From Utricularia gibba (Eukaryota; Streptophyta; Magnoliopsida; Lamiales; Lentibulariaceae), in the NCBI GenBank assembly GCA_002189035.1, contig NEEC01000017.1, positions 2,542,001 through 2,606,000 on the forward strand: DNA of 64,000 nt. The letters are read 5' to 3'. Numbering within the stretch: position 1 is the stretch's first letter; every line of letters begins with the position of its first letter. Positions 10,003 to 41,600 of the stretch are shown piece by piece. Both the position numbers and the translations under genes were made by a program. The notes beneath the pieces are model-generated. The model saw only the letters and a program-made list of their open reading frames with translations. It made no database searches and was not told the origin of the DNA.

Positions 10003-11732
10003 TTACGAAGAGCAGCACCCGCTCTTCTGGCCAACGGGCTGGCCGCGGATCTGGACAGTGGGAGGTCTTGCCGTGTTAGATGCAGGCTGACTTGCCATCC
10101 TGTATGTCCCAGAAAACATGCATGTGATCAAGGGTTGAAGTAAGCTAGACCGAGACATTGAGGAAAGCAAACCTGTTCTTAATATCTGCAGCCATGGCCA
10201 TGAACGCCTGCTCGACATTAGTGGCATTTTTTGCACTTGTCTCCATGAATGGAATTCCAATCTCGTCGGCAAAAGCCTTTTTTCAGAATAGACAACACTT
10301 TTTCAGTAAGACTCTGTAAAACAGACTACGTGCACAGAGTAGAATGTTGTATTATCTCTACCTTTGCTGTATCATACGATACAGCCCTGTTATCAGACAG
10401 ATCGTTCTTGTTTCCAACTAAAAGCTTGTTAACATTATCACTAGCATAGCGGTCAATTTCATTCAACCATTGCTTGACATTGTTAAAGCTTTCCTGGTCA
10501 GTGACATCATAAACGATCTGCAAACAATGGATGCCATGTCAGTTATACATTACCAAAAGAGCAGGGCAGCATGACGAAAGACGAAAACTTAATTACAATG
10601 ATCCCATGTGCGCCACGATAGTAACTGCTGGTTATAGTTCTGAATCGCTCCTGGCCAGCCGTATCCCACTGCAAGCAAATTTGACACTTTGAGGCATCCA
10701 AAACACCACCAAACAAAAAAGGGCAAACCCAAATATTATACAAACATAATATGTCACAAAAAACCTGAAATTGTAGCAAAACGCAGAAATGATGCCATTG
10801 CAAGATGAACATGAAAAAAAAAATATACGAAATATAAACCCCATAGAAACTTACAATCTGAAGTTTTATAGTTTTCCCATCTTGCTCCACGGTTCTAATT
10901 TTCTGAACAAAAAATCGAAAAGTTTAAGTACTGTGGATTGATACTCCAACACAAACAACTCATACACCAAAGCCATACAAAGTCTACTCCAATTGTGCTG
11001 ATGTAACTGTCAATGTAAGAATCGTCCTGCATTCAAAAAGAAACAATGATTGGCACCCGCCGCAGACACACAAAAACCCCACGAAAACAGTGATTTGTTT
11101 AGAAAAATGAACAAAATTAAAGGCTTACGGCAAATCTTAAGAGAAGGCACGATTTGCCCACACCAGAATCGCCAATCAGAAGAAGTTTGAACAGGTAGTC
11201 GCTACAAGCGCAATAAGAAAGCAGGATTTAACGTAACACAATTAAAGTCAACAGACATTAAAACGTAAAATATGATCTCTAACAAGCTTCCGGTCATCTA
11301 AATGGCCTGACGATAAAGAATCAACATGAGATTTAAACCATAGCTAGGAGACGAATCAACGTGGATCATAATTATCCTCACATACCGTCACGTGTGTCCT
11401 AAAAATCAGGATGCCTAAATATTTACCAATTTCATCGATATCACACCCAATCCATGGGAAAAACCCGATAGCAAACCGTGTTTGACAAAACCAAAATAAC
11501 CTAACCAGATCCTGCAAATTTATTTTCAAGGAAATGAAATGAAATGAAAAATCGCAGTGGCGCCCTGACGGATCTATCGAGCAGCGTAGTTTGGATCCAT
11601 CAATCAAGCGCCCACACCAAAAAAAAAAAAAAAACTTTCGCTTCAAAACAACAAACCCTAGAACGAATCATGTTGAATCAAAAGGTTCCTCGGAGGATAA
11701 GAAGAAGAAAGAGTTTACTATTCCGGATTCAT
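10003..11732 (-). CDS. RABD2: RABD2-type Rab GTPase (Rab1/ARA5 class)
   Basis: Small GTPase controlling ER-to-Golgi vesicle traffic. Eight exons join cleanly: 11719-11732, 11129-11201, 10979-11026, 10855-10902, 10597-10668, 10362-10517, 10173-10276 and 10003-10099. They total 612 nt, or 203 aa, the usual RABD2 length. Exon 1 is only 14 nt (MNPEY with a split Tyr codon) followed by a GTAAAC donor. Visible motifs are the P-loop GDSGVGKS, switch I STIGVDF, the WDTAGQE G3 motif, NKND (G4), ETSAK (G5), and the prenylation tail GCCSS. RABD2 rather than RABD1 is chosen because of [27 protein letters not shown] and the [11 protein letters not shown] tail. G4 reads NKND where many RABD2 proteins have NKCD, a minor variation. 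No defect is seen. Confidence 0.96.
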
Positions 11733-12357
11733 GATCTGTCGCTGGCGCGGTGGTTGAGCTATAGGAAATCGGAATATTCGTCTTCCGACGCGGGCCTAAA
11801 TGCAAATGGTTAAGGAGCTCGGCGACCGACAGGACATCCTTAAATATAGAAGCTGGTGGCCGAGAAGCAAGGAGATGCGACTGATTTTACGCAAACACCC
11901 CTCTAACCAAGTTCAATTACTATTATAACACCTCAACCGAAGTTTGTTGATGACAGTAGTAGCCGCTCGCTGGCCCCCAATTTTCTCATTTGTAAATTTT
12001 TTTTCTTTATCTGATTACTCCACAATAAGCAAGGACACGTAATTGTATTGCTTGAGGCAAATCGTACAAAAGCATTCATGTGAAGTGGGGATACAGGACA
12101 GCACTTCCGTGGCCAACAAACCAAAACAACTTCATTCATCCAATACGCGCTCCACCAGGTTTTCAGGCCCAAAAGATCTCAGGCCTTGGGCCGAAAGACC
12201 TATACGGGCAAGAATGCAGAGCATACCGAGCAAGCAAAGTTCCAGGGTTTGATCTCGCTGGCTGCTGGAGAGTTCGGCCAATGACCTCGGAACCATGCGC
12301 TCTGCATATGCACGCGCATGTTCTTCAACGTTAGTGAAGACGGAAAAGTCGAGTCAT
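11733..12357. other. intergenic, RABD2 upstream region
   Basis: About 600 bp between the RABD2 start codon and the 3' end of the small gene to the right. It holds the RABD2 promoter/leader. I see no supported coding region. Confidence 0.5.
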
Positions 12358-13181
12358 TTAAGGAGGAGGATCAATCGGCACGCGGACGACTCCATCAATC
12401 TGACGAGTGAACCGCTCTCCCAGATACTGATGATACTCCCAGCTCTCAGGGCCGATAAGAATCAGTCTGTACCTAGAGAGATAAAGCATTTGTCGCCCCA
12501 GGGGTATTTTCACACTTACTCCCAACACAAGGAGTGAAAGAGAGCTACACGAGCAAGGAATACACAAGGCAACAGCACAGCCAATCATTAATGAGGAAAG
12601 CAAATCATCATCAGAATCAATAGCATTTCCATTTTCATTCGCAGCCAACAGAAGCCGCGTCTAAAGGTGTCCTAAGATTCATGCGTTGTTCATCACCTGA
12701 TGATCAGCGAACTTCAACAAGAAAGCAAAGAGGATTAAGAAACGACTTGGTTTCTGGGATCACGAGGGATGAAAAAGATCTCAAACTCTCAGGCCAAGTG
12801 TTGCAAGTTTCGAAACTTTCGTATCATCAACATCAACTACATACCTGTACTTTTGCCGTAAGCCGAAGAAAAAAAGAGTGCTAAATGGGGAAAATTTAGA
12901 AAAGGGGGATTTCGGCGCTCAGATTTGGCGATTTGGAGTTTAGGTTCGATTCTGCCAGCAAGGACTCCTCAATTCAATTCAGAAGAGGGAGCTTAGCTAT
13001 CTTCATGGCCAAATATCCCCCGTATCAATGAACAGCATCGATACAAAAAATCAAAAAGAAAGAGATGATAATCGCTCGGTTCAGCGGTAGTCGACACGCA
13101 GGTAGAAATCCCAGAAGAGAGATCAACCTACAATCCGGTCTGTTGAGCTTGAATTTTCCGAGTCGTCACAGCGAATATCAT
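12358..13181 (-). CDS. small 66-aa protein gene hosting an intronic C/D snoRNA
   Basis: Three exons join with matching phases and consensus splice sites: 13132-13181 (ATG, donor GTAGGT), 12845-12880 (acceptor CATTTAG, donor GTATGT) and 12358-12472 (acceptor CTCTCTAG). They total 201 nt and encode 66 aa ending in TAA. The peptide starts MIFAVTTRKIQAQQTGF. It continues through an aromatic/basic stretch (FFFGLRQKYRYR) and a C-terminal exon containing LILIGPESWEYHQYLGERF, and ends VPIDPPP. I do not recognise the family. Basic residues plus the aromatic core suggest a small organellar or RNA-binding protein, but this is speculation. Intron 2 (12473-12844) contains a C/D-box snoRNA. A telo-box lies about 115 bp upstream of the ATG, as in other ribosome-biogenesis genes. 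The gene may be kept mainly as a snoRNA host, but the phase-perfect ORF argues that the peptide is real. Confidence 0.6.
12604..12704 (-). ncRNA. C/D-box snoRNA in intron 2 of the small-protein gene, putative 25S rRNA methylation guide
   Basis: On the minus strand, box C (GTGATGA, 12690-12696) and box D (CTGA, 12611-12614) are 75 nt apart. They are bracketed by a perfect 7-bp terminal stem: TGATGAT at 12604-12610 (minus) pairs with ATCATCA at 12698-12704, with one unpaired base before box C. Internally the minus strand carries ATCTTAGGACACCT (12665-12678). This is perfectly complementary over 14 nt to the plant 25S rRNA segment AGGTGTCCTAAGAT as I recall it. The guide is followed by a degenerate D'-like element (TTAGA). 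An imperfect C' may lie at GAATGAAA. The snoRNA lies entirely within intron 2 of the small-protein gene, so it is probably released by splicing and trimming. The modified nucleotide is not assigned because D' is degenerate. Confidence 0.8.
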
Positions 13182-13292
13182 CTCAAAAACCCCGAAGGAC
13201 ACCAAGCAAGGATGAAAACGAAACCTACCAAGTTGAAAAATCGGAGACAACAGAAGTCCGCACAATGTTATCGAGTTATATAGAGGTTCGTC

Positions 13293-13300: not shown

Positions 13301-13391
13301 CAAGATACCTGGTATATTCCCTTCCCCGGGCTTCGGCCCAAAAGCAAGTATTCATTCTGAAGAGTGAGGGGTGAAGCAATGACGTGACGCC

Positions 13392-13440
13392 GTCCCACAT
13401 CGGATGCGAATCATACGCCTGTAAAGGCTTGAGTTATAAA
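13392..13440 (+). promoter_or_regulatory. plant snRNA promoter: USE and TATA box of U5
   Basis: GTCCCACATCG at 13392-13402 matches the plant Upstream Sequence Element (RTCCCACATCG) exactly. TATAAA is at 13435-13440. The 32-nt USE-to-TATA gap is the spacing that specifies RNA polymerase II snRNA genes; Pol III U6/U3 genes have a gap about 10 nt shorter. The RNA begins about 30 nt after TATA. Confidence 0.93.
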
Positions 13441-13470: not shown

Positions 13471-13593
13471 AGCTGCGCAGTGAGCACAGAGCGAACTATT
13501 CTTTCGCCTTTTACTAAAGAATACCGTGTGCTCGCTGCACAAAGCAGCATACGCCTATTTTTGGAGGGCTGCCTTCCTTCACCGGAGAGCCCA
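13471..13593 (+). ncRNA. U5: U5 spliceosomal snRNA
   Basis: Contains the hallmark U5 loop I CTTTCGCCTTTTACTAAAG (13501-13519) inside a long stem whose arms GCAGTGAGCACA and TGTGCTCGCTGC pair. This is followed by an Sm-site ATTTTTG (around 13556-13562) and a 3' hairpin GGGCT...AGCCC (13565-13592). Length of about 123 nt fits plant U5. A USE/TATA promoter stands at the right distance upstream, and a degenerate 3' box (AGTTCAC) follows. U5 aligns the exons at the spliceosome core. With intact promoter, loop, Sm site and stems it is likely functional. The exact ends are good to a few bases. Confidence 0.93.
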
Positions 13594-13964: not shown

Positions 13965-14036
13965 GTGGCTGTAGTTTAGTGGTTAGAATTCCACGTTGTG
14001 GCCGTGGAGACCTGGGCTCGAATCCCAGCAGCCACA
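13965..14036 (+). tRNA. trnH-GUG: tRNA-His (GTG anticodon)
   Basis: Acceptor stem GTGGCTG (13965-13971) pairs with CAGCCAC (14029-14035), followed by discriminator A. The D-arm A box reads TAGTTTAGTGGTTA, the anticodon loop TTGTGGC carries GTG, and the T arm is CTGGGCTCGAATCCCAG. There is no intron. A CAA motif (CATCAAC) lies a few bases upstream, as is usual in plant nuclear tRNA genes, and a T-run terminator follows. The tRNA reads as nuclear and functional; G-1 would be added after transcription. Confidence 0.96.
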
Positions 14037-38627: not shown

Positions 38628-41600
38628 TCACGAGTCAAAGTCGACGTTGGAATTCTTTCCGGTGAGGATGCGAGATATTTGAAGCCCCCTGCTGAAGGCC
38701 TCGTTGAAGAGTATCCGCGTCTGCATCTGTTGAAATCCTGGCATCCATGATAGTATGGCCAATGGGACCATTACTATCAATCCAAACAGCATGTCGTAGA
38801 GGCGAGCCAGGGATACCACTGTCTCCCACACGATGCTGGACTGCAGAAAAGGTCTGAGCACCTGAGCGATGAGAATGAAGCCCCAGCCGGTGGGAACGAA
38901 CGCCAGAAGACTTTGCACGAAATCAAGAACAGTGATGTTGGTATAGTACAGTAGTATGACAACCACAGCAACTGTGACTGTGATAACGCCGAACTGAACC
39001 ATCCTGTAGTAGATGTGCTGCTTCGCTGAATATTTATCCCGAGCATATGCAACGATGATATAGATGCCCACAGCCACGATCAGGAAGATCCATGAGAGCA
39101 AGTAAACAGCAATGCTTGTATTTCCGCGGGCGATATTCAAATGGTAAACAACTCCATACTGGAAAAAGAAGAAGCGCAGATCTAAAATGATCTCCAACAG
39201 TTTTCCCCACAGTCCAGTTGTCCTCAAATGGTCCTGCTCCTCATACCACCATGCCTCCCAGCTCTGCTCAGATTTCACTAGCATCCCTCTGTACCATATC
39301 CACTTTATGAATGCATCAAAGTCGTACACAGTTTTCAGCCAGTCGAAGCCAGATGGATTAAACATGAATGGTGCCATCATCCATGATACCACAAGGAACC
39401 AACTTGATATCGTCATCAGTATGTAAACAACAGTGTTATTCATACCTAATGGGCTATCAGATGCGTACACGATCAAGATGACCCCAAGTTCAATGGCCTT
39501 GATAAAATGGCTGCGAGCATAGAGTCTGTAATTTTCTACAAAACTCTTGTGCTGCACAACAAAGCCACGCCCGGTGGCACGATATTTGGCACCACCGTGA
39601 AGGATAGTCCTACCGAAGAAATGAGCACGTGTTCCCATCGAGAATGTGAAGAAAAATGAAGCAAGCTGCAGCTGCATGGTGATAAAATCCCAAATTGACG
39701 GGAGGAAGCCGCGCTCCAGTGAGTTCTCTACAATCATAGGAAGGGCAGTGAAAACTCCGATCTGTATAACAAACTGCTGGTTCAAGATGGCACCAAGGGC
39801 TCTATTGTTACTGGAATTTCTTGCATGCGCTTCAACACCACTGAGGGCAAGATAAAGGCGCCCCCAAAGAAAAGCAAAAACCATGACAACCACCATCATG
39901 TTGTTGAAGTAGAACCCAACTGTCGTGTAGAATACAGAAAGCATACGAAAGAAGTCAAGACGATGGCCCAACCTGTATATATCCCTGCTCAAAACCTGTT
40001 CTCCGTTGCCACTGGCAACTTTTGCTTCAAACATAGAAATCTGATTCAATCCAACATCTCTTCCTTTCCCAACTTGTATGTATTCATGGTGCGTGACGTT
40101 GCCACCTCTCAACGTACAGTTGAATCCGGCATAGATATCCTCACTTATGTTGATCACTCTTGAGGCTTTGCTGATACCACCACGAGTCAAAAACCAGAAC
40201 CTGTCAAAGACATCAGGATGACCATAGTGCATTCGAACCTTGAGAGGATTCGCCAATACACGTTGACCCAGAGTTACAAAACTCATCTCCTGTGCAGACA
40301 TGAACCACGCCAGGGATGAAACAGAACCTGTAAATATGTTTTCGCGAATCCCAGAATGGTAGGCCTTCTAACACCATGACTGACTTTGAATTCTTCCAAC
40401 AGGTTTCGCATCTTCAGTGCCTCCTCGAAACAGTTGTCCTGGTTCATATCGATTGCCTGCAGAGCATCACCACGGGTGAATATTATGGCATGGTTTTGGT
40501 TCTCAGGCTTACCTTCCCCAAGCTTCAGAGGGCCAGGTAGCTTAATTCGATAGACTTCCACCTCTTTATCTTGTTCATGATCATATTTCACCAGAACAGA
40601 GTAGTACTCCTCTTCTCTTCCAAGGTTGACTACATCAACATACGCAACACGAAGGGCCTCATTACTTTTCATTAATTTTGATATCTCTTCAGCACGTGCA
40701 TCACCTTTTGCCTTGTGAACCCCATACATTTGGCAAGCAACAACGTAAGTGAACTTCATCAGAGCAACTCCATACTCGTGACCTTTGTAAAGCAGGCTGA
40801 TACGACCACTTCCAACCGAATCAAGATTCACAGAATTTGATGAACCCAAAGCTTGGATATCAGCGCTACCATTCACCCTCTGTATACGAGATGTAGAAAT
40901 GTCCATAGATCCTTGTCTTATTTCAATCTCGGATGCAGAATCAAAAAATGAAAGCATTTTAAGGGCCCTGTAATAATACATCATCCCTCTGACAGTCCGA
41001 GCCAATGTTTGACCTCTGTATGAAGCCCACTGCCTGAGGTCCCTAGACTTGGTATTCCATACCTCTGCCTCATCCTGCATTCCTTCCCTTTTCATACGCT
41101 CAATAAAATTTATCCACTCGTCTTCATAAATTTTTTGTAGATAAAACAATGTGGAAATACCATCCTCATTTGGGCTTCTAAGCATTTCTTTACCAAACAA
41201 CACTTCTTCATCGTAGTAAGGAGTCAAGACACTGAAGGCCATCATCTTCTCGACCTGGGGTGCGCGAGGCATGTTCATGAATAATGAATTACTGAAGAAC
41301 GCAATCCTTCTTCTTGCATCGAGATTTTTCGGGACATTGCTCATCGAGTCACGAGAACTAAGGATAGCGTGCAGACGCCGCAACTGCCTGAAGAAGAAAA
41401 CGTCTTCAGCATCAGGCCACTGGATTGAATTCTCGAATGGCAGCTCAGTATCAGTACTTCGTTTAAGAGGTGCCAAACCCTCAAGCCCCAACTGAGTCAC
41501 GGACTTCTTCACCCGTGGGAGTTCACGGATAGCAAGTTCATACAATGCTTGAAGCACATTCACCAATTTATCAACATTTTTCTGTGGCGCGATGAGAAGT

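Follow-up and report, generated by a model that had tools for sequence, protein, structure and literature searches.

The minus strand of the window (the whole 64,000-nt stretch of Utricularia gibba DNA that was analyzed) carries, at positions 12604 to 12704, a gene that is very probably the last member of an independent polycistronic cluster of C/D snoRNAs, predicted to guide methylation of 25S rRNA at U2651 and probably at G2652. It is a genuine C/D snoRNA gene in a plant cluster, probably functional, whose family and target are already known. The original prediction had described a C/D snoRNA with box C, box D and a perfect 7-bp stem within 101 nt, and all of these elements were located on the minus strand. 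The sequence read from 12704 to 12604 (101 nt) is ATCATCAGGTGATGAACAACGCATGAATCTTAGGACACCTTTAGACGCGGCTTCTGTTGGCTGCGAATGAAAATGGAAATGCTATTGATTCTGATGATGAT, and its parts are as follows, with differences noted for a second genomic copy on contig C255.

12604 to 12704, minus strand: box C/D snoRNA resembling RF00353 (snoR31/Z110/Z27); cmscan 38.9 bits, E 0.0021, model positions 1-97 of 97, gathering cut-off 45
12698 to 12704, minus strand: ATCATCA, forming the terminal stem on the 5' side
12690 to 12696, minus strand: box C, GTGATGA (GTGATTA in the C255 copy)
12665 to 12678, minus strand: D' guide, ATCTTAGGACACCT, complementary to 25S AGGUGUCCUAAGAU; unchanged in C255 and shared with Rfam SNORD58
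12660 to 12663, minus strand: TAGA, a putative box D' of degenerate sequence (C255: TGGA), which sets U2651 at D'+5 and G2652 at D'+6
12640 to 12659, minus strand: internal hairpin CGCGGC...GCTGCG in the region from D' to C' (CGCAAC...GTTGCG in C255)
12611 to 12614, minus strand: box D, CTGA (identical in the C255 copy)
12604 to 12610, minus strand: TGATGAT, forming the terminal stem on the 3' side

The element therefore has the RUGAUGA and CUGA motifs near its two ends, as well as the terminal stem, that define a box C/D snoRNA. The two arms of the stem pair over 7 bp with no mismatches, and the stem is found in both the window and the C255 copies. Two pairs of the internal hairpin differ in C255, with pairing kept in both copies.

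A scan of the window against Rfam at the curated cut-offs reported R87, U5, a tRNA and J33; the element at 12604-12704 was absent from the results. At a relaxed threshold it matches RF00353 end to end, over all 97 model positions. The score of this match, below the Rfam cut-off, is probably why automatic annotation could miss the gene, which had indeed been thought easy to overlook. The element aligns with RF00353 over its full length and has the same boxes, the same stem and, as guide, UCUUAGGACACCU, but differs from the family in its lower score and in a longer, hairpin-bearing part between D' and C'. In a genome-wide search with RF00353 the window element ranks first (E 0.016) and the C255 copy second. 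A third match, on C98 (27.1 bits), was taken as chance, the guide being absent in the sequence read there. A weak match to the SNORD58 family (RF00151, cut-off 42) also lies over the guide, with 17.7 bits for the window element and 23.1 bits for the C255 copy.

The guide pairs over 14 nt with a segment of 25S rRNA that covers U2651 and G2652; the letters opposite the guide are those of an assumed plant 25S sequence, the segment being missing from the readable Utricularia gibba assembly. Support for these letters consists of that assumed sequence, the Rfam SNORD58 match that shares UCUUAGGACACCU with the guide, and a numbering that fits published sites: with G2620 of the assumed plant 25S set at its published place, A2641, U2651 and G2652 land on the right letters. 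A guide is expected to provide at least 9-10 nt of complementarity upstream of box D or D', with its target at position 5, and on the assumed letters this one provides 14 nt, with U2651 at D'+5. The 14-nt antisense element proposed earlier is thereby confirmed on the same assumed letters, its former limits (12664-12679) having been one base too wide at each end. The numbering and the overlap of the SNORD58 match with the guide agree with the rRNA match; the 25S segment was not found in the assembly, where pattern and DNA searches turned up no more than fragments of 25S and an rDNA contig stopping short of the target site. Searches of viral, bacterial and plasmid collections and of paper texts gave nothing usable for this segment. 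The target of the snoRNA is probably 25S Um2651 (D'+5) and Gm2652 (D'+6), in Arabidopsis numbering, and the Utricularia gibba 25S is expected to read AGGTGTCCTAAGAT across the target site. Gm2620, the site of U31/HID2 and snR67, was considered as a target and rejected, since the numbering places G2620 31-32 nt upstream.

In Arabidopsis it is SnoR10 that serves the same pair of residues, its D' guide reaching them at positions 5 and 6; both Um2651 and Gm2652 are reduced in a SnoR10.1 mutant (PMC8053127). Compared with SnoR10 by target, the window element has the same predicted pair of residues, likewise at D'+5 and D'+6. The human equivalents of the Arabidopsis pair are Um4227/Gm4228 (PMC11542601), and SNORD58a has been assigned to Gm4198 in an older human numbering (PMC9696202); matching the two lists suggests that the older and newer numbers denote the same residues. 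With human SNORD58 (RF00151; 28S Gm4198, older numbering) the window element has in common UCUUAGGACACCUUU(G/A)GA and an equivalent target, but SNORD58 is shorter and the remaining sequence is dissimilar.

The gene lies at the end of a group of snoRNA genes on one strand, preceded by motifs of a presumed promoter:

13335 to 13340, minus strand: TGGGCC, a site II motif in what is presumed to be the cluster promoter, conserved in C255
13293 to 13300, minus strand: AAACCCTA, a telo box in the same presumed promoter, conserved in C255
13276 to 13283, minus strand: TATA-like CTATATAA downstream of the telo box, identified by its sequence only
13070 to 13176, minus strand: C/D snoRNA Z107/R87 (RF00360), 77.8 bits, above gathering; C255 copy 92% identical
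12926 to 13016, minus strand: C/D snoRNA R30/Z108 (RF00046), 51.7 bits, E 7.7e-10, gathering 60; C255 copy 90% identical
12732 to 12845, minus strand: relic of RF01288 snoR31, the fourth cluster member, aligned to C255:203560-203680

Along the strand the order is R87, R30, the decayed snoR31 and the RF00353-type gene. The arrangement is that of an independent polycistronic cluster, with R87, R30 and the RF00353-type gene on one strand and with both copies carrying TGGGCC (site II) and AAACCCTA (telo box); these two motifs are reported upstream of most independent snoRNA loci of Arabidopsis (PMC3022908). Like other plant clusters of this type, it groups several C/D genes on a single strand, with little spacer between them and both motifs upstream; it differs from them in that one of its members in the window looks decayed. 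The setting had been put forward as a departure from the usual plant polycistronic arrangement; it is instead an instance of that common arrangement.

RNA polymerase II would presumably transcribe the cluster from the promoter at about 13340-13275, and the precursor would then be cut into single snoRNAs. In the RF00353-type RNA the terminal stem would bring boxes C and D together into a k-turn that is predicted to bind the C/D proteins and fibrillarin. The D' guide, paired over 14 bp with 25S, would direct 2'-O-methylation of U2651 (D'+5) and probably of G2652 (D'+6) too.

On C255 there is a second cluster, with R87, R30 and an RF00353-type gene in the same order. Identity between the window and C255 is 80-92% in the snoRNA blocks, 57-63% in the spacers and 47% in the leader. 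When the whole window was compared by BLAST with the C255 neighbourhood, the match was limited to 12598-13190, that is, to the cluster itself. The RF00353-type copy on C255 scores 31.9 bits, with its box C altered and its guide unchanged. In the interval aligned to the window relic, C255:203560-203680, C255 has an RF01288 snoR31 (35.5 bits) whose outer stem spans 10 bp and whose fold surpasses that of shuffled sequences (z -2.8). In the window no Rfam match was found for 12732-12845; the relic retains the D' guide and its CTGA, its box D reads CTTA, the outer stem is lost, and the fold is no better than that of shuffles (z 0.1). Decay thus appears to have struck different members in the two clusters. 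We raise, as a tentative reading that is probably not the right one, that this decay is complementary, the window keeping the RF00353-type gene intact with snoR31 broken, and C255 keeping snoR31 intact with the box C of its RF00353-type gene damaged. If so, both clusters would be needed for the full set of guides, and the pair would illustrate, on a small scale, how a non-coding polycistronic gene can undergo duplication, degeneration and complementation.

The same comparison bears on whether the RF00353-type copy in the window is itself a decayed, non-functional gene, with the C255 copy or another snoRNA doing the work. Its score under the Rfam cut-off, the identical guide in the second genomic copy and the decay of the adjoining snoR31 would all fit such a state. 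However, the boxes, stem and guide are all intact in the window copy, and it is in the C255 copy that box C is poorer (GTGATTA) and the score lower, so that we regard loss of function in the window as unlikely.

Still less probable, and in our judgment very improbable, is that the snoRNA is hosted in the intron of a protein gene, from which it would be released by splicing, debranching and trimming. Such an intron was part of the original prediction, where it was called well bounded. In its favour one could cite the AG|GTATGT at 12845, which resembles a donor, and the ctctctag at about 12473, which resembles an acceptor and has an open frame after it as far as 12358. But the open frame (12358-12473) has no Pfam match and sits inside an insert of mitochondrial DNA at 12344-12555, the donor-like GGTATGT reads GGTCTGT in C255, and R87 and R30 fall outside any such intron. 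Moreover, the block common to the window and C255 is the cluster alone, without flanking genes, and the downstream Rab-type gene has its start at about 11732, past the insert, and a TATA-like sequence of its own. The C255 copy has neither a conserved exon nor conserved splice sites. The intron was abandoned on account of the upstream R87 and R30, the promoter motifs, the sharing of the cluster only with C255, and the mitochondrial origin of the supposed exon; this rejection covers the candidate splice sites found (12845 and about 12473), the intron intended in the earlier proposal not having been stated. The segment 12358-12473 was considered as a conserved 3' exon and rejected, being best read as nuclear mitochondrial DNA. 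The insert shows about 90% identity with two stretches of C515, a contig with an intact COX1, as well as with nuclear places on C2 and C402. A gap of 43 nt separates it from the snoRNA block, and it is absent from the C255 cluster.

The layout of the RF00353-type gene was also set against chance expectation. Both strands of the window were scanned for a box C followed after 40-110 nt by CTGA, together with a perfect stem of 7 bp or more. One such element was present in the 64 kb, compared with a mean of 0.017 in 60 windows simulated with a first-order Markov model, a figure that is somewhat favourable in that the rules of the scan were set after the element had been seen. By chance, 64 kb should contain 2.6 matches of 14 nt to rRNA (counting both strands, with 5.37 kb of rRNA as the reference), so that the rRNA match alone would prove little; inside the 101 nt of the snoRNA 0.0018 are expected, and there the match is significant. 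That the motifs at 12604-12704 coincide by chance, as the 2.6 expected matches might allow, has a negligible probability in view of the family match, the synteny, the conserved guide and the 0.017 layouts expected per window.

Several other genes lie in the neighbourhood. A U5 snRNA gene (13471-13574, plus strand) is divergent from the snoRNA cluster; its upstream element, GTCCCACATCGG, is at 13392, and TTATAAAG lies at 13434. On C255, GTCCCACAT is retained along with a stretch resembling a TATA box (L001, about 2292-2320), and no U5 was found beyond. Near the U5 gene is a tRNA-His (GTG) at 13965-14036 on the plus strand. Downstream of the cluster, the Rab-type small GTPase gene occupies about 10003-11744 on the minus strand, with several exons and a Pfam Ras match of E 9.5e-69. 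A single C/D snoRNA, J33 (RF00315, 70.3 bits), is found at 40917-40995 on the minus strand, with no other snoRNAs within about 2 kb.

Much of this is routine annotation, beyond which the RF00353-type gene provides one more natural case of double targeting from D'+5 and D'+6. The comparison with C255 indicates that a duplicate copy of a cluster can separate an independent snoRNA cluster from an apparently intronic one. For the genome of Utricularia gibba, the analysis yields a further guide RNA gene, its target named, which goes unreported when Rfam is applied at its strict thresholds.
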